Source of the DNA: Humidesulfovibrio sp.
GTDB lineage: Bacteria; Desulfobacterota; Desulfovibrionia; Desulfovibrionales; Desulfovibrionaceae
NCBI RefSeq assembly: GCF_031082295.1
Contig: NZ_JAVHLD010000024.1
Span: 1-46,385, forward strand
Length of the DNA stretch: 46,385 nt
Direction: 5' to 3'
Shown: piece by piece, positions 15,838 to 26,695 of the stretch
Position numbering within the stretch: the first letter of the stretch is position 1
Layout: each line of letters begins with the position of its first letter
Translations under genes and position numbers: made by a program
Notes under the pieces: generated by a model
What the model was told of the DNA's origin: nothing
The model's input: the letters and a program-made list of their open reading frames with translations, nothing else
Databases searched by the model: none

Positions 15838-15920
15838 ACCTTGTCAAGAGGGAATTTTTGTCCTTTTACCGGCCAAAAATAGGGAATTTTTGTCCAATGG
15901 CAAAAACAGGGGTATACTTC
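15838..15920 (+). promoter_or_regulatory. Shared phage-region promoter/operator, copy 1
   Basis: Two identical 14-mers GGGAATTTTTGTCC lie at 15850-15863 and 15882-15895, exactly 32 bp apart (about three helical turns). Inverted half-sites GGCCAAAAA (from 15871) and GGCAAAAA (from 15899) alternate with them. The second repeat supplies the -35 box TTGTCC (15890-15895); TATACT (15913-15918) is the -10 box after a 17-bp spacer. TTGTCAA precedes the first repeat. It points into the tail/lysis gene cluster. Two more copies are at 25175-25257 and 26612-26695, both facing phage-type genes on the minus strand. Operator function is inferred from the repeat geometry. Confidence 0.85.
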
Positions 15921-15969
15921 GCTCCAGCCGGACCGCGCCGGGTCTAACCTTCAAGCGACGAGCCACCAC

Positions 15970-16434
15970 ATGCCCGCACACCTCCATGCAACGCCCTTCC
16001 TGCCCGCCCATGCGGCGTCCCTTTGCCTCAGGCCCGGCGCGGCCATGGCTCTGGCCGGACTGCCGCCCCTCGACGAGCTGGCCCGCGCCTACCAGGGCGC
16101 CGGTCCGGCCTGGACCGTGGTGGCGGGCGGCGAGGCCATCGCCTGCGGCGGGGTGGTGCGCTTCTGGCCGGGCGTGGGCGAGTGCTGGTGCTGGGCCGGG
16201 GCGGGCGTGGACCGTTGGCCCGTGGCCTTTGCGCGGCTCGTCCGCGGCGTCGTCCAAGGCTTGTGCCGAGAGCACGGCTTCCACCGCCTGCAGATCCATG
16301 TGCGCTCCGACGACGAGCGCGCCAATCGTTTCGCCAGCCATCTCGGCTTCACCCTGGAGGGCCGCTGCCCCGGCTTCGGCGCCGACAGGTCAACACACAA
16401 TCTCTACGGGAGGTTCCGCCAATGGAAGGAGTGA
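15970..16434 (+). CDS. GNAT-like phage protein
   Basis: The 154-residue protein looks like a divergent GNAT acyltransferase: a central beta-rich part, then a helix and FHRLQIHVRSDDERANRFASHLGFTLEGRCPGFG, which matches the C-terminal acetyl-CoA-fold pattern. Such proteins are frequent next to virion genes in T7-like phages (gp13 position). No clear ribosome-binding site precedes the ATG, and the start is the least certain part. First gene after promoter copy 1, about 50 nt after its -10 box; its end overlaps the next gene by 13 bp. Confidence 0.6.
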   Translation: MPAHLHATPFLPAHAASLCLRPGAAMALAGLPPLDELARAYQGAGPAWTVVAGGEAIACGGVVRFWPGVGECWCWAGAGVDRWPVAFARLVRGVVQGLCREHGFHRLQIHVRSDDERANRFASHLGFTLEGRCPGFGADRSTHNLYGRFRQWKE

Positions 16435-16982
16435 CCAAGGTCATGCCCATGGCCATCAACGTGGGCACGGACATCATGAAGGGCGTGCTGAACAACGCGA
16501 TAAGCGGCGGCAGCAGCACGGAGACGAGCGACGCTGCCGAGCAGCGCGCCCAGACCGCCGAGGCCCAGGCCAGGCGCCAGGCCGAGGCCGAGCAGCTGCG
16601 GACGCGGGAACAGGCCGAAACCCTGCGCGAGGAGAATCAGCGCCGCCGGGCACGCGCTCGCGTGGCCTCGGCCGGGTCCGGGCTGGAGCTGTCCGGCACC
16701 TCGCTATTGAACCTGCAGAGCCTGGACCACCAGCAGGAGGACCAGCTGGGCGAGCTGCTGGGCGACTCCTCGAGGCGCGTGGCCGACATCCTGGCCTCTG
16801 GCGCGGAACAGGCCCAGAGCATCCGCCTGTCCGGTCGGCGCAGCCGCGCGGATGGCGGGCTGGGCTCGCTTCTGGGCCTCGGCGGGCAGGTGCTGCAAGG
16901 TGGTCGTTTTGGTGGTGTCCTGGTTGATGGCGCCCCCAGCGGCAAGAAGGACGAGATGCCTTCCGGCGCGATGGATTTCTAG
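16422..16982 (+). CDS. Internal-virion-like coiled-coil phage protein
   Basis: The 186-residue protein has a short hydrophobic N-terminus, a long charged helix rich in Ala, Glu, Gln and Arg (about 35-90, coiled coil) containing RRRARARVASAGSGL, and a flexible Gly-rich C-terminus. This composition and its place before a large tail gene fit small internal-virion or ejection proteins of podoviruses, but I cannot assign a specific family. It overlaps the previous gene by 13 bp and lies 15 bp before the next. Confidence 0.55.
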   Translation: MEGVTKVMPMAINVGTDIMKGVLNNAISGGSSTETSDAAEQRAQTAEAQARRQAEAEQLRTREQAETLREENQRRRARARVASAGSGLELSGTSLLNLQSLDHQQEDQLGELLGDSSRRVADILASGAEQAQSIRLSGRRSRADGGLGSLLGLGGQVLQGGRFGGVLVDGAPSGKKDEMPSGAMDF

Positions 16983-16997
16983 CAACAGGAGTTCCAC

Positions 16998-19160
16998 ATG
17001 TCCCTTGTTCCCATGATCCTGACCAACTTCACCTCCGGGGAGCTCTCGCCCCGGCTCTCCGGCCGCGTGGACGTGGCCAAGTACTTCAACGGCTGCCAGA
17101 CGCTGGAGAACTTCCTGGTGCATCCGCACGGCGGCGTCACGCGCAGGAGCGGCATGCGCTACGTGGCCGACGCCGCCAGCCATGACGCAGCCTCGGCGCT
17201 CCTGAGCTTCGAGGACGCCTCGGGCCTGGCCTGGGTGCTGGAATTCGGCCCGGCTCCTGAGGGGGCCGCCGCAGGCCAGGGCGTGCTGCGCTTCTTCTTC
17301 GACGGCGGCCGCGTGCTCGACGACGAGGGTGGCATGCTGGAGCTGCCGACCCCGTATGCGGCGGAGAGCCTGGGCGAGCTGCGCGCCGTGCAAGACCGCC
17401 AGGAGCTCATTTTGACGCACCCGCAGGTGGCCCCGCAGGTGCTCTCGCGCACGGAGGACGGCGGCTTCGCGCTGGCGGCGCTGGACCTCGACACCCAGCC
17501 CGAGGCCTGGGGCGAGGGCAATTGGCCGGGCCTGTGCTGCCTGCACGAGGACCGCCTCGTGTTCGCGGCAACCTCGAAGGAGCCCTTCACCCTGTGGTTT
17601 TCGCGCACGTCCGGGCACCGCGACTTCCGCCTCTGCACGCGGGAGGTGCCGCTCTCCGGCTGGGACGACTTCGAGATCGCGGACGGTTCCGGCGACTCCC
17701 GCGCCGACGGCCGCGCGGGCGACACCTTCCTGCTGCTCTCCGGCGACACCTTCAGCCAAGGTTCGGCCCTGTGCGGGGATGTCTACGACGAGGGCGGCGA
17801 CGCCACGCCGCGCTACTACCGCTACACCGGCCAGCGCATCGTCACGGCCTCCAGCGGCTCGCTGCGGGCCACCTTCCGCGACGCCCCCTCCACCACGGCG
17901 GAGATAGAGAGCGTGCGCCTGGCCGACGGCTCGCTCAACTCCGGCTTCTGGGAGGAGTTCTCGGTGGGCGACCGCATCGTCGCCGATCCCGGTTCGGACC
18001 CGCTGGACGACGACGGCCTTGAGATCACCCTCTCGGCCCAGCAGGGCGGGCGCATCTGCTTCCTCGCCCCGCGCGACAAGCTGTGGATAGGCGCCACCTG
18101 CGGCGAGTGGACCGTGTCCGGCAGCTCGCTCGGCGCGCCGGTGACCCCCGGCTCGGTCAAGGCCGACCGCCAGGGCACCAGCGGCGCGGCCCAGGGCGGC
18201 GCCTGCCAGGCCGGTCGCGCCACCCTCTATGTGCAGCGCTCGGGCCGCAAGGTGCGCGAGATGGCCTACCGCTTCGAGTCGGACGCCTACGCCTCGCGTG
18301 ATCTGACCCTGCTCTCGGCCCACGTGGCCGCGGCGGGCCTGACCCAGCTGGCCTTCGCCCAGGAGCCCGACCCTGTGCTCTTCTGCGTGCGCGCCGACGG
18401 CGTGCTGGTGGCCATGACCTATCTGCCCGAGCAGGACGTGTGCGCCTTTTCGCGCATCGTCACCGACGGGGCGGTGGAGGCCGTGTGCGTGGTGCCTAAC
18501 GACGCCGAGGGTCGCGACGAGCTTTGGCTGGTCGTGCGGCGCAGCGTGCCGGACCCGGATGCCCCGAGTGGCGCGCCACTGGTCCGGCGCTTCATCGAGA
18601 CACTAGACCCGGCCTTTTCCGAGGACGCGGAGGGCGCGGCGGAGGCCTTTTTCCTCGACGCGGGCCTGAGCTACGCCGGGGAGCCCGTGGCCGAGCTGAC
18701 GGGTCTTGCCCACCTGGCCGGGCGCAGCGTGCAGGTGCTGGCGGACGGCGCGGTGCTGCCGGAATGCAGCGTGTCGGCGGAGGGCGCCATCAGCCTGCCG
18801 CGCCCGGCCAGCCGCGTCCACGCGGGCCTGGGCTACAGCTCGGTGCTCAAGCCCATGCGCCTGGAGTTCTCCGGGGCGCGCGGCAGCTCGCAGACGCGCA
18901 CCAAGCGCATCACCGAGGTCACGGTGCGGTTGTTCCGCAGCCTGGGCGGCAAGGTCGGCCCGGACTCGTCGCGCCTGGAGCCGCTGCTCTACCGCACCAG
19001 CGCCGACCTCATGGACGGCCCGCCCGCCCTCTTCACGGGGGACAAGGCCGTGCGCTTCCCCCAGGGCTGGGGGACGGACGGCGTTCTCACCGTTGTGCAG
19101 GACCAGCCCCTGCCCATGACCGTGCTGCTTGTGGCGCCCACCTTGGCCATCAACGAATAA
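16998..19160 (+). CDS. Large phage tail (nozzle-type) structural protein
   Basis: The 720-residue protein begins with MSLVPMILTNFTSGELSPRL, then GRVDVAKYFNGCQTLENF and HPHGGVTRRSGMRYVA. This N-terminus is typical of phage tail proteins in the tail-tubular-protein-B neighbourhood of podoviruses. The rest is beta-rich, with no enzyme motif. AGGAG precedes the ATG. It is followed by a T7-type fibre gene, as gp12-like nozzle proteins are in related phages, although the usual intervening internal core genes are missing. Assignment rests on the N-terminus and synteny. Confidence 0.68.
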   Translation: MSLVPMILTNFTSGELSPRLSGRVDVAKYFNGCQTLENFLVHPHGGVTRRSGMRYVADAASHDAASALLSFEDASGLAWVLEFGPAPEGAAAGQGVLRFFFDGGRVLDDEGGMLELPTPYAAESLGELRAVQDRQELILTHPQVAPQVLSRTEDGGFALAALDLDTQPEAWGEGNWPGLCCLHEDRLVFAATSKEPFTLWFSRTSGHRDFRLCTREVPLSGWDDFEIADGSGDSRADGRAGDTFLLLSGDTFSQGSALCGDVYDEGGDATPRYYRYTGQRIVTASSGSLRATFRDAPSTTAEIESVRLADGSLNSGFWEEFSVGDRIVADPGSDPLDDDGLEITLSAQQGGRICFLAPRDKLWIGATCGEWTVSGSSLGAPVTPGSVKADRQGTSGAAQGGACQAGRATLYVQRSGRKVREMAYRFESDAYASRDLTLLSAHVAAAGLTQLAFAQEPDPVLFCVRADGVLVAMTYLPEQDVCAFSRIVTDGAVEAVCVVPNDAEGRDELWLVVRRSVPDPDAPSGAPLVRRFIETLDPAFSEDAEGAAEAFFLDAGLSYAGEPVAELTGLAHLAGRSVQVLADGAVLPECSVSAEGAISLPRPASRVHAGLGYSSVLKPMRLEFSGARGSSQTRTKRITEVTVRLFRSLGGKVGPDSSRLEPLLYRTSADLMDGPPALFTGDKAVRFPQGWGTDGVLTVVQDQPLPMTVLLVAPTLAINE

Positions 19161-19211
19161 GTCCGGCGAAGAGCCGCGAATGCCGCTTTGCGAAGTGGCG
19201 AAGGAGAGACA

Positions 19212-20093
19212 ATGACCCTGTCCACCCAAACCTCAAAGACCTCCTACACCGGCAATGGGGCCACCTGTGAGTTCCCCGTGCCGTTCCCGTTCATGCGCGC
19301 GGACGACATCAAGGTGCTGCTGCGCCAGGACGGCGTGGAGCTGCCGCTCTTTTCCGGCACGCACTACAGCCTCGAAGGCGCGGGCAACCCCTCCGGCGGC
19401 AGCCTGGTTCTGGGCGAGCCTCCGGCCACGGGGCAGACCCTTGTGGTCTACCGCGCCCCGGCCATCGTGCAGGAAGTGAACTACGTTGAGAACGCGGCGT
19501 TTCCCGCCGAGACCCACGAGGCCGCCCTCGATCTCCTGACCATGATCTGCCAGGCCCTGGACGAGAAGCTCGGCCGCGCCGTGCTGTACCCCGTGAGCAC
19601 CCCGCAGGAGGATATCCGCGACTCTCAGGCCTTTCTCCAGGCCGGTGAGAGCGCCCGCGACGCGACCCTGGCCGCCGCAACCCAGGCCAGCGCCGCCGCA
19701 ACCCAGGCCGAGGGCCACGCCAGCCAGGCGGAAGTCTACGCCGCGCAGGCACAGGCCTCTGTGGGCGGGGTCCGCGTGAGCGCGGGCGACACCGCGCCGG
19801 GCAACCTGTCGGTCAAGCTCACAGCGGGCGACGGCCTGGCCGAGACCCTCCTTGCTCCAGGCGCGGACGAGGCCCTGCTGCTGTCCGTGGCCCTGGCGGC
19901 CGACCCCGGCCTGGAATTCGCCGAGGGGCTGCTGCGCGCGCAGGTGGCCCCCGGCGGCGGGCTGGCCAGAACGGGCTCGGGCCTGGCGACGGACCTGGGT
20001 GCAGGTCCGAACCAAATCTCCACAAATCTGACCTTGCGGCCTGCCATGGTGGCTGGCCGCGTTCTTAACCACACAACCCTGGGAGGCATGTAA
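19212..20093 (+). CDS. T7-type tail fibre protein (N-terminal attachment domain)
   Basis: The 293-residue protein starts with the phage T7 gp17-like N-terminal domain: SYTGNGATCEFPVPFPFM, then DDIKVLL, ...YRAPAIVQEVNYVENAAFPAETHE and a helix ending in LDEKLGRAV. A short Ala/Gln coiled-coil region (about 145-185) and a beta-rich C-terminus follow. The whole is much shorter than T7 gp17 and looks like an adaptor carrying other receptor-binding parts. GAAGGAGAGA precedes the ATG at 19212. The gene ends 1 bp before the next. Confidence 0.78.
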   Translation: MTLSTQTSKTSYTGNGATCEFPVPFPFMRADDIKVLLRQDGVELPLFSGTHYSLEGAGNPSGGSLVLGEPPATGQTLVVYRAPAIVQEVNYVENAAFPAETHEAALDLLTMICQALDEKLGRAVLYPVSTPQEDIRDSQAFLQAGESARDATLAAATQASAAATQAEGHASQAEVYAAQAQASVGGVRVSAGDTAPGNLSVKLTAGDGLAETLLAPGADEALLLSVALAADPGLEFAEGLLRAQVAPGGGLARTGSGLATDLGAGPNQISTNLTLRPAMVAGRVLNHTTLGGM

Positions 20094-20094
20094 C

Positions 20095-20511
20095 ATGGCA
20101 GCGAACAAGGAACCCATCTTCATCGGCCAGATCACCGGAAAGATCACCGAACTGGCTGACACCACGGAAACCGACATCTTCGTCGGCGACGCCGAGGAGT
20201 CCACCCGCGTGGACGTGCTGGCCGTCAGCACCGACGACACCGCCGACAAGGATCTTGTGCTGTATTTCCACGACGGCACGGCTAGCAAAAAGGCCACCAC
20301 GGTCAAGATCCCGCTGAGCAGCGGCAGCACCAACACCATCGCCCCGGTGAACCTGCTCGCCGCGTCGCAGATGGCCCCGTTCGTCCAGGCCGACGCCAGC
20401 GGCAACAAGTACATCAACCTGCCGCCGAACCACAAGCTCCGCGCCGCCGAGGCCGCCGCGCCCACCGCCGGCAAAAAGATGTGGGTCTTTGCGCGCGGCG
20501 GGAAGTACTAG
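20095..20511 (+). CDS. Small phage structural protein of unknown family
   Basis: The 138-residue protein, beginning MAANKEPIFIGQITGKITEL, is beta-rich and polar, without signal or membrane segment. I do not recognise the family. Its place between the fibre and the discoidin/glycine-rich tail protein suggests a virion or tail-tip component. The next gene follows after 2 bp. Confidence 0.6.
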   Translation: MAANKEPIFIGQITGKITELADTTETDIFVGDAEESTRVDVLAVSTDDTADKDLVLYFHDGTASKKATTVKIPLSSGSTNTIAPVNLLAASQMAPFVQADASGNKYINLPPNHKLRAAEAAAPTAGKKMWVFARGGKY

Positions 20512-20513
20512 CC

Positions 20514-22553
20514 ATGCGCCTCTCGTCGCACGCGGGCGTCGGCCCGCGCCACATGTCGACCCATGCGGGCGGCGGGGGCTGGCCCGGAGGGGTCGGGGGC
20601 TTGCCCCCCGGCCCCCTCGGGGCCTCGTCCACCCTGTTTGGCAAGGGTGAGTATAGCCAGGACATCAAGCAAGAGGACCGCCGTACCCTGAACTATTCCG
20701 GTTCATATGGCGCGTCCTTAACCGGGTACTTCGTAGTAGACAGGGCTGCGGCTGCTCTCACCCCAGGAACAGCTATATCCGACTTGATGTACTACGATGC
20801 CACTGGCGGCAACAACATTACCTTATACATTGTTGAACGTGTCTCTGCTGGCAACTATAGAGTGGCGCTGAATGTCGAAGTCCCAAGTACATCCAACGGT
20901 GGCTACAACAAGGTAGCGCTGGGAGCAGTATTCACTGTCCCTGCAACAGGGGAGTACCGCACGGCTGTTTACGTGAACTCAGGAAACTCCTATTACTCTG
21001 GTTCTGCGTATTCAAGGGGATACAGAGCGTACAAACCATCTGATGGAGAAACCTTCGGAAGTGTCACGGAAGATTCCAATACGGTCGGTGGCCCCGGTAT
21101 AGTGTATGTGGTGCAATTCCAGTCCAGCTATACGTCAACAGAAGTCACCGTTACCGGGCAGACTGCAACCGCATCCAGTGAGTACAGCGGGTCGTACACC
21201 GCAGCCAACGCATTTAATGGTGCTTGCGGCACAACGGCAGACTACTGGCAGACAGCTGTGGGAGTCACCACTGCTTGGCTGAAAGCAACGTATTCTATTA
21301 AGAGGAGAATCACCAGATACCAACTTGAAGGTGGAACCAACCTCGGGCTTTCTGCAATGCCTAGCAGTTGGACTCTTGAGGGCAGCAATGACGGGGGTGC
21401 GACATGGAATGTGTTAGACACACGTTCTGGTATTTCCTTCGCAGTTGCGTGCTCTTGGCAGAGTTACACTGTTGCTTCACCGGGAGAGTACCTCGCGTAC
21501 AGACTGAATATCGCTGCATCTGGCGGTGCCAACTACCTCGGAATAAGTGAAATGCAGTTCTTTGAGAGCTACACTTTCACAAACGCCATCGTCATTACTA
21601 GCGCGGCTACAGTCGCCCCGGACGCGCTCACCTTCGCCTGTGTTGTGAAGGGTCACACTCTTGTTCTGGACGGCGCAAGCGCATCGTTGAAGCCCTCCAC
21701 AAAATGCAACGGTCTGTACGCGCACCTCACGGGCGACCTTGTGTTGCTCAACGGGGCAACGTGCAACATCGACGGCCTTGGCAAAGGCGGCACTGTCACG
21801 GGCAGCAAGTCCGAGGTGGATGTGCTCCCCGACTCCATGAAGGCTGGCCTCGCACTGGCTAAACTGGCGAACTACGTCATGGTTCAGCCGGGGGCGAGTG
21901 GCGGTGCTGGCGGACCTCCGTCTGGCCCAAGCTACAACCAAGGTACTGTTGGCGGCACTGGCGCTGCTGCTGGCCCCATGCAGACGGGTGGCGGCGGTGG
22001 TGGCGGGTCCGGCAACTACGATGTCAACCTCGGCGGTGGCGACGGGGGGCCGGGTACGTCCTTCGGCGGCGGCGCTGGTGGCGGTGGCGCTCCCCGCCAT
22101 AGCACTGGCGGCACGGCTGGTGGCGATGCGACTGCGGCTCTCGCTGGTGGTGTCGGCGGTGGCAACACGGCTGGCAACGGGGGCGGTGGCGGCGGTGGCG
22201 CTGGCGACCCTGTTGGGGCGGGTGGTGCGCAAGGTCCGGGCAGTCCCGGCACTGGCGGTCCCGGTGGTGTCCTCATGGCCTTCGTAAAGGGGTGGATTAA
22301 GGTGGCATCTGGATGCCGCATCTCCTCTGACGGAAGCGCCGGGGGTGCTGCGTATCCTTCCACAGGTGGAGGCGGCGGTGGCGGCTCTGGTGGTGGGCTT
22401 GTGGGCCTGTTCTACCTCGGTGGCTACACCAACAACGGGACTGTGCGGGCAAACGGTGGACTTGGTGGCGCGAAGGGAGCTGCTGAAACCTACAACTGCC
22501 CCGGTGGCCCTGGTGGTCCCGGCTCCGTGAACATCATCAACTTGGCCGCATAG
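20514..22553 (+). CDS. Discoidin and glycine-rich tail adhesin-like protein
   Basis: The 679-residue protein has a short Gly/Pro-rich N-terminus and a beta-rich part. Residues about 216-346 form an F5/8 type C (discoidin) domain (TASSEYSGSYTAANAFNG ... YWQT ... YLGISEMQFFE), a fold that usually binds carbohydrate. Residues about 455-670 are Gly-rich (GGGGGGG runs, GGPGGPG), reminiscent of polyglycine-II phage adhesin tips. The DNA from about 20640 to 21600 is visibly less GC-rich than its surroundings, with different codon choice. I infer a receptor-binding protein with recently exchanged specificity modules. Start at 20514 follows GGGAAG. Confidence 0.72.
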   Translation: MRLSSHAGVGPRHMSTHAGGGGWPGGVGGLPPGPLGASSTLFGKGEYSQDIKQEDRRTLNYSGSYGASLTGYFVVDRAAAALTPGTAISDLMYYDATGGNNITLYIVERVSAGNYRVALNVEVPSTSNGGYNKVALGAVFTVPATGEYRTAVYVNSGNSYYSGSAYSRGYRAYKPSDGETFGSVTEDSNTVGGPGIVYVVQFQSSYTSTEVTVTGQTATASSEYSGSYTAANAFNGACGTTADYWQTAVGVTTAWLKATYSIKRRITRYQLEGGTNLGLSAMPSSWTLEGSNDGGATWNVLDTRSGISFAVACSWQSYTVASPGEYLAYRLNIAASGGANYLGISEMQFFESYTFTNAIVITSAATVAPDALTFACVVKGHTLVLDGASASLKPSTKCNGLYAHLTGDLVLLNGATCNIDGLGKGGTVTGSKSEVDVLPDSMKAGLALAKLANYVMVQPGASGGAGGPPSGPSYNQGTVGGTGAAAGPMQTGGGGGGGSGNYDVNLGGGDGGPGTSFGGGAGGGGAPRHSTGGTAGGDATAALAGGVGGGNTAGNGGGGGGGAGDPVGAGGAQGPGSPGTGGPGGVLMAFVKGWIKVASGCRISSDGSAGGAAYPSTGGGGGGGSGGGLVGLFYLGGYTNNGTVRANGGLGGAKGAAETYNCPGGPGGPGSVNIINLAA

Positions 22554-22562
22554 GAGGCTGTA

Positions 22563-22901
22563 ATGATTCTCTTGCATCACCCGGAAGTGGAATTGTCGCG
22601 CGAGCTGCTGGCGCAGTTGCCGGCGGACTGCGGTTGCGTGGACTGGACCAGCGAGCTCCAGCGCGAGGAATACCAGGCGCAGGACGGGCTTCCGCCCTCG
22701 GCCTTCCCGTCGGTCCTGGTGGACGTGCCCGCCTACGCCGAGGACCGCCCGATGATCGGGCCTGACGGCGAGTTCCTGGGCATGGAGGTGGTGGCGGTGC
22801 CAGCGCATCAGGAACTGCTGCGTCTGCCCGCGAGCTGGGCTGCCGTTGCCTCGTTCACGGCCTCTGTGGAGGAGCGGGCGCTGCTGCTGCCTGCCGGATA
22901 G
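22563..22901 (+). CDS. Hypothetical protein downstream of the tail adhesin
   Basis: The 112-residue soluble protein has no recognised domain. It sits directly behind the adhesin gene, where phages often encode fibre-assembly chaperones, but sequence support for that is lacking. AGGAGG precedes the ATG. Confidence 0.55.
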   Translation: MILLHHPEVELSRELLAQLPADCGCVDWTSELQREEYQAQDGLPPSAFPSVLVDVPAYAEDRPMIGPDGEFLGMEVVAVPAHQELLRLPASWAAVASFTASVEERALLLPAG

Positions 22902-22912
22902 GAGGACGGGCC

Positions 22913-23296
22913 ATGCACCAGCCCTGCGGCTTCCACGACCAGTTCATGGAGCAGATCCGCGATGCCCTTGTGGGCCTGAAGGACCAGATGCGCGTGGGCA
23001 TCGGGGCCGTGGCCGAGCAGTCCAAGGCCAACGGCGAAACGCTGTTGCGCATCGCCGAGTCCCAGACGGCACGGCGCGAGCTGTGCGCCCGCCAGGCCGA
23101 GCGCCTGGTGGCCCTGGAGCGCGGCGCGGACCAGCATCGCGAGGCCCACGCCCAGTCCCGCGAGGAGCACCTTGCCGAGCGCGCGGACCTGTGGAGCGCG
23201 GTGAACCGCCTGCGTTTCCATGTCTACGTTGGCCTGGGCGTGGGGCTGGTGCTCCAACTCGCCGGTCCGTTCGTGCTCGCGGCCGTGCTGAAGTAA
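22913..23296 (+). CDS. XhlA-like coiled-coil lysis accessory protein
   Basis: The 127-residue protein consists of a long helical, charged coiled-coil region (about 10-95) and one C-terminal hydrophobic segment (about 103-125, ending AGPFVLAAVLK). This topology is like haemolysin XhlA-type proteins that assist phage holins. It is immediately upstream of a holin and a lysozyme. Alternative: a spanin-like or membrane-anchor protein. Confidence 0.5.
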   Translation: MHQPCGFHDQFMEQIRDALVGLKDQMRVGIGAVAEQSKANGETLLRIAESQTARRELCARQAERLVALERGADQHREAHAQSREEHLAERADLWSAVNRLRFHVYVGLGVGLVLQLAGPFVLAAVLK

Positions 23297-23335
23297 CCCC
23301 GCCCCGCGGCGGGGCCAGAATCCAGGAGGAAGACC

Positions 23336-23737
23336 ATGCTGCTTGACTTCATTCCACTCATCGGGGCGGCGGCGCAGAAGCTGCTGGACCTGATCCCAGA
23401 CCCCGGGGCCCGGGCCAAGGCCGCCGAGGACTACCAGCGCGCGTTGCTCGACATCGCCGCCAAGGCCGAGGCCGACCAGCGCGACGTCAACAAGGTCGAG
23501 GCCGCCAGCGCGTCGCTGTTCGTCGCGGGCTGGCGGCCGGCCATCGGTTGGGTCTGCGCGGCCGCCCTGGCCTTCCAGTACCTGGCCCGCCCCCTGTGGG
23601 CGTGGGCCTCGGGGGTCTGGTGGCCCGCATCGCCCCCGCCCCCGGCCCTGGACGACATGCTCTGGCAGCTCATGTTCGGCATGCTCGGCATGGGCTCGCT
23701 GCGCACGTTTGAGAAGATGAAGGGGGCGGGCAAATGA
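23336..23737 (+). CDS. Three-TM-type phage holin
   Basis: The 133-residue protein begins MLLDFIPLIGAAAQKLLDLIPD, continues with a charged helix, then VAGWRPAIGWVCAAALAFQYL and a further C-terminal hydrophobic segment (MLWQLMFGMLGMGSLRTFEK). This matches the 3TM holin family. Holins permeabilise the inner membrane and release lysozyme. AGGAGGAAG precedes the ATG, and its stop overlaps the lysozyme start as ATGA. Confidence 0.8.
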   Translation: MLLDFIPLIGAAAQKLLDLIPDPGARAKAAEDYQRALLDIAAKAEADQRDVNKVEAASASLFVAGWRPAIGWVCAAALAFQYLARPLWAWASGVWWPASPPPPALDDMLWQLMFGMLGMGSLRTFEKMKGAGK

Positions 23738-24144
23738 ACACGCACCGCCTGGCCCGGGAGCTTCTTCGCGACGAAGGACTGCGGCTCAAGCCGTACCGCT
23801 GCTCCGCCGGGAAGCTGACCATCGGCGTGGGCCGCAACCTGGACGACCGGGGCATCACCGAGGCCGAGGCCCTGGTCCTGCTGGGCAACGACATCAAGGC
23901 CTTCTGGGGCCAGCTGGTGGCGGCGCTGCCGTGGGTCGCCACGGCCCCGGAGGCCGTTCAGGAGGTGCTGGCCAACATGTGCTTCAACCTGGGCCTGGGC
24001 GGGCTGCTGGGATTCCGGCAGACGCTGGCCTATCTTCAGGCTCGGCTCTACGTGGACGCCGCCGAGGAGATGCTGCGGTCCAAGTGGGCCGGGCAGGTTG
24101 GCGCGCGCGCCGAGCGCCTGGCGCAGAAGCTGAAGGCCTTGTAG
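23734..24144 (+). CDS. Phage lysozyme (GH24-like endolysin)
   Basis: The 136-residue protein carries the T4-lysozyme-family N-terminus: ELLRDEGLRLKPYRCSAGKLTIGVGRNLDDRGI, containing the catalytic Glu in RDEG and the GxTIGxG pattern. NMCFNLGLGGLLGF lies later, as in GH24 enzymes. It should cleave peptidoglycan glycosidic bonds. It is slightly shorter than common endolysins and has no signal peptide, so it needs the holin encoded immediately upstream and overlapping by 4 bp. Last gene of the plus-strand unit. Confidence 0.87.
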   Translation: MNTHRLARELLRDEGLRLKPYRCSAGKLTIGVGRNLDDRGITEAEALVLLGNDIKAFWGQLVAALPWVATAPEAVQEVLANMCFNLGLGGLLGFRQTLAYLQARLYVDAAEEMLRSKWAGQVGARAERLAQKLKAL

Positions 24145-24179
24145 CGAGATTGCGTTCGAATTTGCGCTCCCTCGACGCA

Positions 24180-24217
24180 AGACGGCCCGGCCAGGCGAAA
24201 ACCTGACCGGGCCGTCG
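24180..24217. terminator. Bidirectional hairpin between convergent phage units
   Basis: GACGGCCCGG-CAGG and CCTG-CCGGGCCGTC form a long stem around a CGAAAA-type loop, between the lysozyme stop and the converging scaffold gene. Flanking T-runs are poor, but position suggests termination for both directions. Confidence 0.65.
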
Positions 24218-24235
24218 GCGTTCAAGCCCTTGGGG

Positions 24236-25105
24236 TTAGGAAGCGCGCAGCGTCGGAGCCTGCTCGCCGGGATACAGGCTCTCGAAGCCCTTCTGCACCT
24301 GGCGCACGAACTCCGCGTCCCGGCGCGACGGGTCGAAGTAGCGCGGGTCGCGCATCATCTCGCGCAGGCGCTGCGGGGTCAGGCTGGTGGCGCCCCCGGC
24401 GTTCTTGCCGCGCAGGGAGCTCTCGCTCACCAGCGGGGCCATGCGGGAAAAGGCCTGGATCACGCAGGCGTCGTCCGCGGCGCCGCTCTGCTCCAGGGCC
24501 TGCATGAGCGTCTGGCCGCCCAGGGCCAGTACGGCCTTGCGCGCGGCTTCCAGCACGGCCTTGGCCTCGCCGCCGTGGACCTGGCGCAGGCCGGAGAGCT
24601 CCCGTTCGCGGCGTTTCGCGCGCTCGGTGCTGAGCTTTTCCGTGTGCGAGCGCAGCCCGTCCACGTTGAGCGGCAGGAACCAGGCGTACAGGCCGCCGGC
24701 CTGGGCGTCGGACAGGCCCAGCTCGTGGGCCTTGGCCAGGAAGGCGTCGCGCAGGGCTTCGTCGACGCGGAACTCCTCGGGCAGTTCGATCTCCGGCAGG
24801 CGGTAGTGCCCGGGCGACTGGGGCGGACCGTCCTGGCCCTGGGGCGCGCCCTGGGACAAGAGCGAACCCTCGGGCTCGGTCTTGCGGCCCAGCAGACGCT
24901 GGGCGTGCACCAGGGCCTTCAGCGCCTCGCCGGGGGAGGCGTATTTGGCCAGGGCCGGGTGCTGGCGCAACGGGAGCAGGGTCTCCTTGCCGGATTCGTC
25001 GCGGCCGGGCGCCGTCAGGTCCTCGGGCAGGTCCAGTCGCCAGTCGACGGGGGCCGCGCTCATGGGCTGGGTGCGCTTCTGGGACGGGGTGGGGGCATCG
25101 GTCAT
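24236..25105 (-). CDS. Phage scaffold-like (capsid assembly) protein
   Basis: The 289-residue protein is acidic and helical, without membrane segments. The opening WRLDLPEDLT, then ALAKYASPGEALKALVHAQRLLG, then PEIELPEEFRVDEALRDAFLAKAHELGLSDAQA follow the layout common to phage scaffold/capsid-assembly proteins. In phages this gene normally sits between portal and capsid genes; here it is alone on the minus strand, convergent to the tail/lysis unit, with its own promoter (copy 2). AGGAG precedes the ATG. The scaffold role is a family-pattern inference. Confidence 0.68.
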   Translation of the reverse strand: MTDAPTPSQKRTQPMSAAPVDWRLDLPEDLTAPGRDESGKETLLPLRQHPALAKYASPGEALKALVHAQRLLGRKTEPEGSLLSQGAPQGQDGPPQSPGHYRLPEIELPEEFRVDEALRDAFLAKAHELGLSDAQAGGLYAWFLPLNVDGLRSHTEKLSTERAKRRERELSGLRQVHGGEAKAVLEAARKAVLALGGQTLMQALEQSGAADDACVIQAFSRMAPLVSESSLRGKNAGGATSLTPQRLREMMRDPRYFDPSRRDAEFVRQVQKGFESLYPGEQAPTLRAS

Positions 25106-25174
25106 GATGGTCTCCTAGGGTAACAGGTGGGCGCATGGCCCGCACGCGGCACAATGCCGGGTCGGGCGCTCGGA

Positions 25175-25257
25175 CCAGTATACCCTAGGTTTTGCCGACG
25201 GACAAAAATTACCAAACTTTGGCCGGTAAAAGGACAAAAATTCCCTCTTGACAGGGT
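25175..25257 (-). promoter_or_regulatory. Shared phage-region promoter/operator, copy 2
   Basis: Reading on the minus strand, GGGAATTTTTGTCC (25232-25245) and GGTAATTTTTGTCC (25200-25213) are again 32 bp apart. The -35 TTGTCC (25200-25205) and -10 TATACT (25177-25182) have a 17-bp spacer. A 36-bp run (25218-25253) is identical to copy 1 at 15842-15877. It faces the scaffold-like gene, whose start is about 70 bp downstream. Confidence 0.85.
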
Positions 25258-25258
25258 T

Positions 25259-25621
25259 TCACTCAAGGCTGAGTTCCGCCGCCTGGACCACCCTCTGGTT
25301 GGTGAAGCCGAACAGGCGCGTGAATTTTGGCCAGCGGGGGTCGATCTCAAGCCCGGGCTCCACGCGCAGGCCCAGGATGCGCGTCTTGCCCAGCCGCCTG
25401 GCCAGGGCCTTCAGCTCCTCAACATCAGCCCGCAGCGCGCGCACGGTGGCCGGGCCGTACCGAAGCACCGAGAGGTGCAGCTCAAGGGCGTCCGGGTGCT
25501 CGGCCAAGGCCGCGGCGGCGTAGAGCCCGGCAGCGTCGGAGAGGGTGAAGAAGCGCATGTGCCTGGACTCAGGCAGGCCGGATAACGACGAATGTGCGCC
25601 TGGTTGTTCGAAAATGGGCAT
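25259..25621 (-). CDS. Small protein of unknown family in the phage region
   Basis: The 120-residue soluble protein has no signal or membrane segment. Its C-terminal WPKFTRLFGFTNQRVVQA resembles the last strand and helix of small GNAT-like phage proteins, but the acetyl-CoA loop is not visible and I do not assign function. AAGGAG lies 7 nt before the ATG. It ends just upstream of promoter copy 2 on the same strand. Confidence 0.55.
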   Translation of the reverse strand: MPIFEQPGAHSSLSGLPESRHMRFFTLSDAAGLYAAAALAEHPDALELHLSVLRYGPATVRALRADVEELKALARRLGKTRILGLRVEPGLEIDPRWPKFTRLFGFTNQRVVQAAELSLE

Positions 25622-25946
25622 ATTGTTCTCCTTGCTTCGGGATTATGTTACGATTGCCTAGGCAGGTCGGGGTTCACGGCATTTAGCACGGCTCAAAAAA
25701 GCACCGACTTTTCTGTTGCCAACCTTTGGCAACGGGTATAATGACTGCGCGTGAGGGTACGGACCCCCGCGCGGTCGCGGCGTTGCTGCGAACGGGCGTC
25801 AGGGCCAAGGCCTCGCTCCGGCTCCAGCTGACCGCCAGCCCTTGGGCGAACGGCGGCGGGAACAGGTCCCGGGTGGGACTTTTGCCGGAGGTGCAGGAAT
25901 TTCGAGTCTGTGTTTCACCACCACCACATTACAGAGGAAGGTTCCC
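25622..25946. other. Divergent control region within the phage region
   Basis: 325 bp between the minus-strand unknown gene and the plus-strand lipoprotein gene. It contains a 10-bp palindrome TGCCTAGGCA (25655-25664), a 19-bp palindrome with a plus-strand -10 box (described separately) and otherwise no supported gene. Confidence 0.5.
25715..25742 (+). promoter_or_regulatory. Palindromic operator overlapping a promoter
   Basis: GTTGCCAACCTTTGGCAAC (25715-25733) is a perfect palindrome with 8-bp arms and a 3-bp centre. TATAAT (25737-25742) follows 3 bp later, so the palindrome covers the -35/spacer region. It points to the lipoprotein gene about 205 bp downstream. A repressor or activator is implied; none is identified nearby. 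Confidence 0.6.
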
Positions 25947-26168
25947 ATGAAGAAGCTGTTCGCCGTCATGATCGTTGCGTCCCTGGCCCTTGGTGTTTCC
26001 GCCTGCGGCGAGAAGAAAGCCGAAGAGAAGAAGGCCGAGCCCGCCGCTGCCGCTCCGGCTCCCGCCGCTGAGGCCAAGCCCGCTGAAGTGAAGGCCCCTG
26101 AGGCTGCCGCCCCGGCCGCCGCTCCCGCCGCCGAAGCCGCCAAGCCGGCCGAAGCCAAGAAGCCCTAA
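25947..26168 (+). CDS. Small lipoprotein with Ala/Pro/Lys/Glu-rich tail
   Basis: The 73-residue protein has a signal ending in the lipobox LGVSAC (lipidated Cys about residue 19). The tail is a low-complexity extended chain of KAEEKKAEPAAAAPAP-type repeats. No domain is recognised. AGAGGAAG precedes the ATG at 25947. It lies between phage-type genes but on the opposite strand, with a different kind of promoter and its own terminator, as expected of a cargo (moron) gene; a host gene caught between them is equally possible. Confidence 0.72.
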   Translation: MKKLFAVMIVASLALGVSACGEKKAEEKKAEPAAAAPAPAAEAKPAEVKAPEAAAPAAAPAAEAAKPAEAKKP

Positions 26169-26190
26169 GGCTCAAGGCATCTGACCATCC

Positions 26191-26221
26191 AGAGGGGGCT
26201 GCGAGGCCCCCTCTTTTTTTT
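26191..26221 (+). terminator. Terminator of the small lipoprotein gene
   Basis: AGAGGGGGCT / AGGCCCCCTCT stem with a GCG loop, followed by eight T residues, 22 bp after the stop. Confidence 0.93.
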
Positions 26222-26227
26222 GCTCGA

Positions 26228-26255
26228 CCAATTTCGCTTGGCCAATTTCGCTTGG
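26228..26255. repeat. Tandem 14-bp palindromic repeat
   Basis: CCAATTTCGCTTGG occurs twice back to back (26228-26241, 26242-26255); each unit is CCAA-6-TTGG. It lies just downstream of the terminator and beyond the stop of the Bbp19-like gene. Function unknown. Confidence 0.7.
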
Positions 26256-26334
26256 CCGTCCCGCCTCCCGTCACTTCGACTTCCACATCCACCGCGCGGC
26301 AAGTCGTCCGCGCGCCTTGCCGGGCAGCAGCCCG

Positions 26335-26589
26335 TCAGCGCCCGCCGCTGTCGCGTCCCGCCGCGCCCTCGGGCTCCGGCTTGCGCCCGGGCTCCGGCCC
26401 CTCGATCATCCTGGCAATGTACAGCGCCAGGCTGCGGCGACCTTCGTTGAAGGCGGCGCGTTGCGGGTCCGGGCTGAAGCTCGTCTCGCGCAGGAAGCCC
26501 TGGCGGGACAGGTCCGCAAGGACCAGTCGCCCGGCCTCGCCTTCAAAAGCCCTTGCATAAGCCACGAACAGGTCTGTTGTTTCACGCAT
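26335..26589 (-). CDS. Bbp19-like small phage protein
   Basis: The 84-residue protein begins MRETTDLFVAYARAFEGEAG and has the conserved segment SPDPQRAAFNEGRRSLALYIARMI, which I recognise from Bbp19-like proteins encoded beside head genes of Bordetella phage BPP-1-type and other podoviruses. The C-terminal 20 residues are a disordered Pro/Glu/Gly tail. AGGAGG precedes the ATG at 26589. It is a one-gene unit with its own promoter (copy 3), which is unusual for such a small virion-region gene. Confidence 0.68.
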   Translation of the reverse strand: MRETTDLFVAYARAFEGEAGRLVLADLSRQGFLRETSFSPDPQRAAFNEGRRSLALYIARMIEGPEPGRKPEPEGAAGRDSGGR

Positions 26590-26611
26590 GGTGCGTCCTC
26601 CTTGTTTCCCG

Positions 26612-26695
26612 CAAGCATACACCCGGAAACTAGGGCCGGACAAAAAACACCCGTTTTTGGCCGCAAAAAAGACAAAAATTCCCGGTTGACAGGGT
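26612..26695 (-). promoter_or_regulatory. Shared phage-region promoter/operator, copy 3
   Basis: On the minus strand: a GGGAATTTTTGTCT repeat (26670-26683) and a GGGTGTTTTTTGTCC repeat (26638-26652), again 32 bp apart, with GGCCAAAAA between. The -35 TTGTCC (26638-26643) and -10 TATGCT (26614-26619) are 18 bp apart. It is more diverged than copies 1 and 2, and the last inverted half-site is lost. It faces the Bbp19-like gene, with a leader of about 18 nt. Confidence 0.82.

Follow-up and report, generated by a model that had tools for sequence, protein, structure and literature searches.

Gene transfer agents (GTAs) are described as hard to find by sequence: they resemble prophage remains and may be split over several loci, and the small terminase of the known GTAs is described as having no DNA-binding domain (PMC11841831). 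In RcGTA of Rhodobacter capsulatus, the direct activator GafA is reported to bind the promoter region holding the -10 and -35 boxes, and extra loci (head spikes, tail fibres and lysis) lie outside the main cluster (PMC9638019). CcGTA of Caulobacter is under GafY/GafZ/IHF control (PMC11150451), and for Dd1 of Desulfovibrio desulfuricans gene transfer was shown experimentally in 1987, as cited in PMC5701242, PMC6854486 and PMC11841831. Here we describe a composite promoter/operator element that stands three times in a 46,385-nucleotide contig of Humidesulfovibrio sp. (assembly GCF_031082295.1, contig NZ_JAVHLD010000024.1; the whole stretch is called the window) and recurs across the genome. The element is probably the promoter of the scattered units of a domesticated, GTA-like podovirus particle and of RHS and modular effector genes. 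The shared promoter would probably allow all of these units to be induced at once, as happens in a GTA.

Like RcGTA, the putative particle is phage-derived and encoded on the host chromosome. RcGTA is described as siphovirus-like, with one main structural cluster, whereas the T7/podovirus-type set considered here is divided among about eight units in about six places; the excerpted account of RcGTA does not mention a phased-repeat array (PMC9638019). CcGTA has, as described, an activator element upstream of the core promoter, a likeness that is predicted here from sequence, but its genes lie in one cluster, where a single promoter carries the elements for GafY, IHF and GafZ, in contrast to the one composite element at every unit found here (PMC11150451). 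The host of Dd1 belongs to the same bacterial family in its older sense, and Dd1 is presented as a ‘putative GTA island’ (Ddes_0703-0715) with a small terminase, Ddes_0720, immediately before the large one (PMC5701242, PMC6854486, PMC11841831). No such adjacent terminase pair is seen here, the two genes forming separate units in 4/4 species, which sets the present system apart from Dd1 as described.

The closest portals among 50,697 phage records (39% identity over 95%) belong to HTVC010P-type Pelagibacter podoviruses, which are free lytic phages with a 34-35 kb genome, whereas no clustered genome is seen here. Domains of RHS polymorphic toxins and Tlde1 peptidoglycan effectors were also matched, but here they stand under a promoter common to phage virion genes. 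Compared with RcGTA, CcGTA and Dd1 as their excerpted accounts present them, the predicted system appears multi-locus-GTA-like, split further, composed of T7/podovirus-type particle genes and served by a promoter common to RHS/effector genes. We call it GTA-like because DNA packaging and transfer are predicted here from the genes. Searches of an open-access literature collection, which lacks most subscription papers, turned up no report of a dispersed GTA for Humidesulfovibrio or Pseudodesulfovibrio, and none of RHS genes in a GTA regulon.

Reading the sequence at all three sites in the window confirmed the positions and strands at which the copies had been placed by the original prediction (Table 1). 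A 36-bp run common to copies 1 and 2, TGTCAAGAGGGAATTTTTGTCCTTTTACCGGCCAAA, was counted on both, and the starts of the two TTTTTGTC(C) units are 32 bp apart in 3/3 copies, as claimed for the repeat pair. The proposed promoter boxes are likewise present, the -35-like TTGTCC being separated from TATACT, TATACT and TATGCT by 17, 17 and 18 bp in copies 1, 2 and 3. Each copy faces phage-type genes, as had been stated: the 154-amino-acid (aa) protein/gp14/tail operon, the T7-type scaffold protein and the Bbp19 protein. The shared composite promoter stands, but its anatomy is a phased direct-repeat array and not a mixture of direct and inverted half-sites. What had been posited as an inverted GGCCAAAAA half-site between the repeats fits better as unit two in a head-to-tail series of four (for example, in the portal gene's element, TTTTTGTCC / TTTTACCGGCC / AAAAACCGTCC / AAAAATGTCC), and the inverted reading was dropped because the elements of other genera show head-to-tail units only. 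A near-invariant CTGTCAA box upstream of the units, TTGTCAA in copy 1, had been missed.

A scan of the window's genome (G000; 3.45 Mb, 73 contigs) with the core pattern AATTTTTGTCNTTTTNNCGGCCAAA, allowing up to 3 mismatches, found 19 copies on 12 contigs and 0 for the pattern read backwards, which excludes chance as the source of the three copies in the window. The core of copy 1 (15853-15877) matched with 0 mismatches. In a sample of 59 genomes of the family (up to 2 mismatches), the core was matched in 4/59, against 6 matches in total for the reversed controls, and more than one match per genome was found only in the two genomes of the window's genus. Within this genus (up to 3 mismatches), 15/15 genomes had a match, with 1 to 23 copies each against 4 in total for the reversed controls; the copy numbers of G066, G069 and G070 (3, 2 and 1) are near chance. 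All sites of four species were taken as the detailed set: 19 in G000, 23 in G071, 9 in G029 and 13 in G065, giving 64. Several copies in the window's genome lie at contig ends. On its contig C34 (20612, 21999 and 23386; L024), at least three tandem units of an operator and a 242-aa effector-like gene follow each other 1387 bp apart, the third being cut by the contig end.

The element has a constant order, in which a GTCAA box is followed by head-to-tail units every 10-11 bp, the last unit forms the -35 box and the -10 box comes after it. Among the 64 sites, CTGTCAA is exact in 57 and GTCAA is present in 62; the last unit is TCC, TCT or CCC in register in 60/63 sites, and the best -10 lies at a distance of 17 bp in 31/62 and of 18 bp in 31/62. 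The 5′ end is often a near-palindrome, CCCTGTCAACAGGG. Unit letters vary while their order stays the same: GTCC/GGCC/GCC/GTCC in the window's genus, CATCC or CGCCC (about five units) in a second, Pseudodesulfovibrio-type genus (g5), and TGC or CGC in genus g29. In 21 g5 elements, CC-CC spacings of 10, 11, 20, 21 and 31 bp were observed 33, 23, 15, 17 and 15 times, compared with 6.1, 6.0, 4.8, 4.7 and 3.1 after shuffling, and distances of 12-15 are nearly absent.

Outside the best-studied clade, a strict regular expression (GTCAA with an A-rich, a GG and a TA part) was met in 42/59 upstream regions of portal, capsid and tail genes from 20 genomes. Upstream regions from the same genome matched at a mean of 40.7/60 positions (56 pairs), vs. 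33.5/60 for different genomes and genes (55 pairs, best 44). As read from these comparisons, the element is a composite promoter/operator whose architecture is kept while its letters change by genus.

The scan of the genome and its relatives with a list of downstream genes, which the original prediction had proposed, was carried out on this set, and the copies mark a dispersed virion-gene regulon. By downstream gene calling, the element precedes the same eight virion units in G000, G071, G029 and G065 alike (32/32). They comprise the small terminase (phrog_4044), the large terminase (phrog_2; Pfam Terminase_3 below its cut-off), a 100-aa gene with the portal (PF12236, 469 bits), the scaffold (PF05396), the capsid (PF19821, 247 bits), Bbp19 (PF25181), tail-tube protein A (phrog_394) and a tail-lysis operon (154-aa gene, gp14, tail protein, fibre, GTA_holin_3TM holin and lysozyme). 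A complete phage-derived structural, packaging and lysis set is recognizable on the chromosome, with terminases, portal, scaffold, capsid, tail, holin and lysozyme; among ten proteins, NCBIfam gave one weak terminase match, below cut-off. The small terminase proteins have 122-137 aa, with an N-terminus that looks by eye like a helix-turn-helix in 2/4 species. At the small-terminase sites (L021:12620-13650, L092, L103 and L116), a convergent Lys/Ala-rich gene on the opposite strand follows the operator in the four species; in L021 it encodes 66 aa, and transcription towards the terminase would be antisense to this gene over ~0.5 kb.

The regulon proved wider than the virion genes to which it had been assigned. 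Of the remaining 32 sites, 6 precede RHS proteins (2, 2, 1 and 1 in G000, G071, G029 and G065), 16 precede modular effector-like proteins (3, 10, 0 and 3) and 10 are cut by contig ends or unassigned (6, 3, 0 and 1). No housekeeping gene was recognized as the first readable downstream gene at any of the 64 sites in the four species. Two of eight effector-like proteins searched against Pfam matched Tlde1 (PF10908) above the cut-off, one matched CHAP and one GH3_M below it, and four matched nothing; the RHS proteins sent to Pfam matched TEN_YD-shell and RHS_repeat above the cut-off in 3/3 cases. Among the 16 effector-like genes, L091 appears frame-shifted and L098 is cut. Downstream of effector genes (L088, L091, L095, L112 and others) a protein family recurs, with the motif ‘(F)DE(R/A)HDRF.GFGP..(D/E)...TLTVDES’; its members are possibly immunity proteins.

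The eight units of the window's genome are spread over six contigs. In G071, a single contig (C6, 162.6 kb) holds tail-tube protein A at 4 kb, the portal at 80 kb and the capsid at 134 kb, and 170 kb separate the two terminase genes on C2 of G029 (small at 175 kb, large at 4.8 kb). Some units are close together: three in the window within 11 kb, the small terminase and capsid of G065 2.8 kb apart, and the portal and tail-tube protein A of G029 7 kb apart. Complete chromosomes of genus g5 carry the same modules scattered under a diverged copy of the element, with the portal, capsid and tail gene at 353, 716 and 377 kb in G084 and at 1979, 1887 and 1704 kb in G146, each a single contig.

A pattern made from known g5 sites was run on five g5 genomes with up to 3 mismatches, as a search that misses several known elements of the same genomes and is no census. 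It gave 18 matches against 0 for the reversed control. Six of these are one six-copy repeat in G084 and are not operators; the other 12 are five known sites and seven new ones. Four of the new sites precede tail-tube protein A (G102, G125, G136 and G192), two precede RHS genes (G102) and one precedes a 196-aa gene of unassigned kind, so that 6/7 held-out sites lie before tail-tube protein A or RHS. New sites were thus found where a dispersed regulon would have them, in a second genus.

Portal relatives (E up to 1e-20) occur in 134/199 genomes of the family and in 14/15 of the genus, the weaker of which may be the portals of other phages. Searches of 25 selected genomes recovered the capsid and the tail protein in 24 each and the large terminase in 14. 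In G020 (L335-L336, C22:53-71 kb), most of the set lies within ~15 kb, with host genes between and around, and the element stands inside this cluster before the capsid gene. This arrangement is likely a picture of an earlier, pre-scattering state, and we tentatively suggest that units which already had operators of their own could then disperse. No integrase or replication gene was recognized beside the units read, judged by eye on called genes with no dedicated hidden Markov model scan of all neighbours. The window's genome also has a separate, clustered podovirus-type prophage (G000:C4:40000-78000; L339, L340), which encodes a distinct portal (30% identity) as well as a protein of 2645 aa. 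The best portal match on a viral contig (89%; L196, from IMG/VR) lies beside Mu-like genes, and this contig is probably a chromosomal bacterial fragment.

The virion genes are intact in the four species. For ten of them, the ratio of non-synonymous to synonymous substitution rates (dN/dS) against three relatives was 0.11-0.48, well under 1 in all three pairs, compared with 0.16-0.31 for HisG; the synonymous rate (dS) was 0.19-0.88 vs. 0.25-0.28. Distance matrices correlated with that of HisG, the one host marker used to judge vertical descent, at 0.885 for the portal (23 genomes), 0.909 for the capsid (21) and 0.887 for the tail protein (22), with 0/2000 permutations as high. Portal and HisG trees have their genus groups in common and differ in the deepest order. 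By the HisG comparison across 23 genomes, these values indicate long-term vertical inheritance under purifying selection, as expected of a GTA. The large terminase has a stop in G059 five residues before the end of the aligned part, and stops in G061 and G066 fall outside it.

From the shared, genome-specific letters of the element we infer one trans-acting regulator. The DnaA-like domain of GafA and the TTATCC-like operator letters prompted a search for a DnaA-type candidate, and two proteins with the DnaA C-terminal domain (PF08299) were found in 11/11 genomes searched (L384-L405). The recognition helix reads DHSTV in 11/11 first paralogues and RHSTV in the 5/11 second paralogues that were readable. 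A DnaA-type (GafA-like) regulator is not supported, the readable recognition helices being constant while the operator letters differ by genus.

The genes of the window are listed in Table 1. The 154-aa protein shows a weak likeness to a GNAT fold, with Acetyltransf_1 just under the cut-off, and the 120-aa protein looks by eye like the product of a 118-aa gene that precedes the large terminase of G020, the relative with the clustered set. An ordinary prophage in the window is ruled out by the absence of integrase and replication genes among its called genes and by the location of the other virion units on other contigs.

Table 1. Copies of the element and genes in the window
Feature	Position	Strand	Evidence
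Operator/promoter copy 1	15838..15920	+	TTGTCAA box, four phased units, last unit TTGTCC = -35, TATACT = -10; sequence and core scan
154-aa protein, internal-virion-like	15970..16434	+	phrog_4177 64 bits; phrog_308 ‘internal virion protein’ 45 bits
T7 gp14-like internal virion protein	16422..16982	+	PF24072 32.8 bits (cut-off 27); phrog_418
Tail protein (tail-tube protein B-like)	16998..19160	+	phrog_376 498 bits; kept in 13/15 genus genomes
Tail fibre protein, N-terminal attachment domain	19212..20093	+	phrog_1640 110 bits and other tail-fibre families
138-aa tail-operon protein	20095..20511	+	no PHROG/Pfam match; conserved in G071, G029, G065
Tail-spike-like protein, F5/8 type C domain	20511..22553	+	PF00754 36 bits; phrog_17517 tail
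112-aa tail-operon protein	22563..22901	+	no PHROG/Pfam match; conserved in three other species
127-aa tail-lysis-operon protein, C-terminal hydrophobic stretch	22913..23296	+	no PHROG/Pfam match; 85-89% identity, three other species
Holin, GTA_holin_3TM family	23336..23737	+	PF11351 65.7 bits (cut-off 24.8); phrog_3427 holin
Endolysin (phage lysozyme)	23734..24144	+	PF00959 45 bits; phrog_7
T7-type capsid scaffolding/assembly protein	24236..25105	-	PF05396 28.0 bits (cut-off 27.1)
Operator/promoter copy 2, predicted driver of scaffold gene	25175..25257	-	sequence and core scan
120-aa protein	25259..25621	-	no NCBIfam match
Bbp19-like phage protein	26335..26589	-	PF25181 65.5 bits (cut-off 25)
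Operator/promoter copy 3, predicted driver of Bbp19 gene	26612..26695	-	sequence and core scan

In the mechanism we propose, one trans-acting protein would occupy the phased units, which share one helical face, and recruit RNA polymerase. On induction, capsid, packaging, tail and lysis proteins would be made together, and a subset of cells would lyse and thereby release particles filled with host DNA, plus effectors. We favour an activator over a repressor, since the last unit stands in for a poor -35 box. Head-to-tail arrays of units extending upstream of -35 are more typical of activators, and PhoB/OmpR-type regulators use head-to-tail arrays of 11-bp half-sites. The present head-to-tail units, spaced by 10-11 bp ahead of the -35 box, are similar by analogy, while their letters differ from those of the PhoB box and no such regulator has been linked to the element. 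The opposite assignment, in which the array is a phage-CI- or LexA-like repressor operator and stress relieves a block on RNA polymerase, draws on the overlap of the last unit with the -35 position and the often near-palindromic 5′ end; given that four to five units line up head to tail ahead of the -35 box, we regard it as rather unlikely.

A different view of the products is that the particle is chiefly a killing device, its domesticated phage capsid and lysis programme serving to release or deliver RHS proteins and effectors aimed at peptidoglycan, while DNA transfer would be slight or lacking. The effector genes speak for it: 22/64 copies precede RHS or modular effector-like genes, 2/8 tested non-RHS effectors have Tlde1 domains, RHS genes carry the element in two genera, and the eight sites fetched from G059 belong to RHS/effector-type genes and to no virion gene. 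However, the terminase pair, portal and scaffold, which packaging needs, have been kept under selection, and we think this view improbable. That the units are scattered remains of old prophages, whose late promoters persist with no working particle, seems very improbable, although damaged copies occur in G114 and G064 and an unrelated podovirus-type prophage is present in the window's genome. Against it stand dN/dS values well below 1 in ten virion genes and three pairs, the single full set that each genome of the four species carries, the persistence of the genes in several genera along a host-like phylogeny, and operator letters that change together within a genome. We reject as hardly credible the idea that a mobile repeat, landing by chance near genes, left the copies as its ends or fragments: several do lie at contig ends, where assemblies break at repeats, but the repeated RHS and tandem effector genes adjoining them explain the broken contigs, and position and orientation before the same eight orthologous units are conserved in four species.

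Several observations weigh against the scattered, co-regulated GTA-like particle that we favour. About half of the copies precede non-virion genes. The strict pattern was missed in 17/59 upstream regions outside the best-studied clade, comprising 6 tail genes of genus g1 and one of g21, which are probably inside operons, and others that are unexplained. Some same-genome pairs of upstream regions show no match, operon-internal tail genes among them, and the tail gene of G146 matches the others of its genome at 31-32/60, an unexplained chance level. In G084, the g5 pattern matched only the unrelated six-copy repeat. Searches of 9 g5 and 2 g29 genomes failed to find a large terminase. The capsid gene of G114 is split into parts ~42 kb apart (C1:2473492 and 2431306), a lineage that has probably lost the particle, and the portal of G064 is in two pieces. 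No regulator was found and no relative of GafA was identified, and particle production, joint expression and transfer are predictions from the genes.

Going further, we tentatively propose a decentralized particle in which each unit has its own rapidly changing promoter copy, and in which particle, lysis and a changing RHS/peptidoglycan-effector arsenal form one lysis-coupled regulon that both spreads genes and kills competitors; we hold this to be possible rather than probable. For the favoured, narrower reading, the dispersed parts of one system can be traced by a cis-regulatory signature through several genera, complete chromosomes included, and the production, regulator and cargo of this system are therefore directly testable. 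The change of operator letters between genera, with the architecture kept, is a natural experiment in the co-evolution of a regulator and a dispersed regulon. If true, the co-control of virion and toxin genes would join two activities that are usually studied apart.
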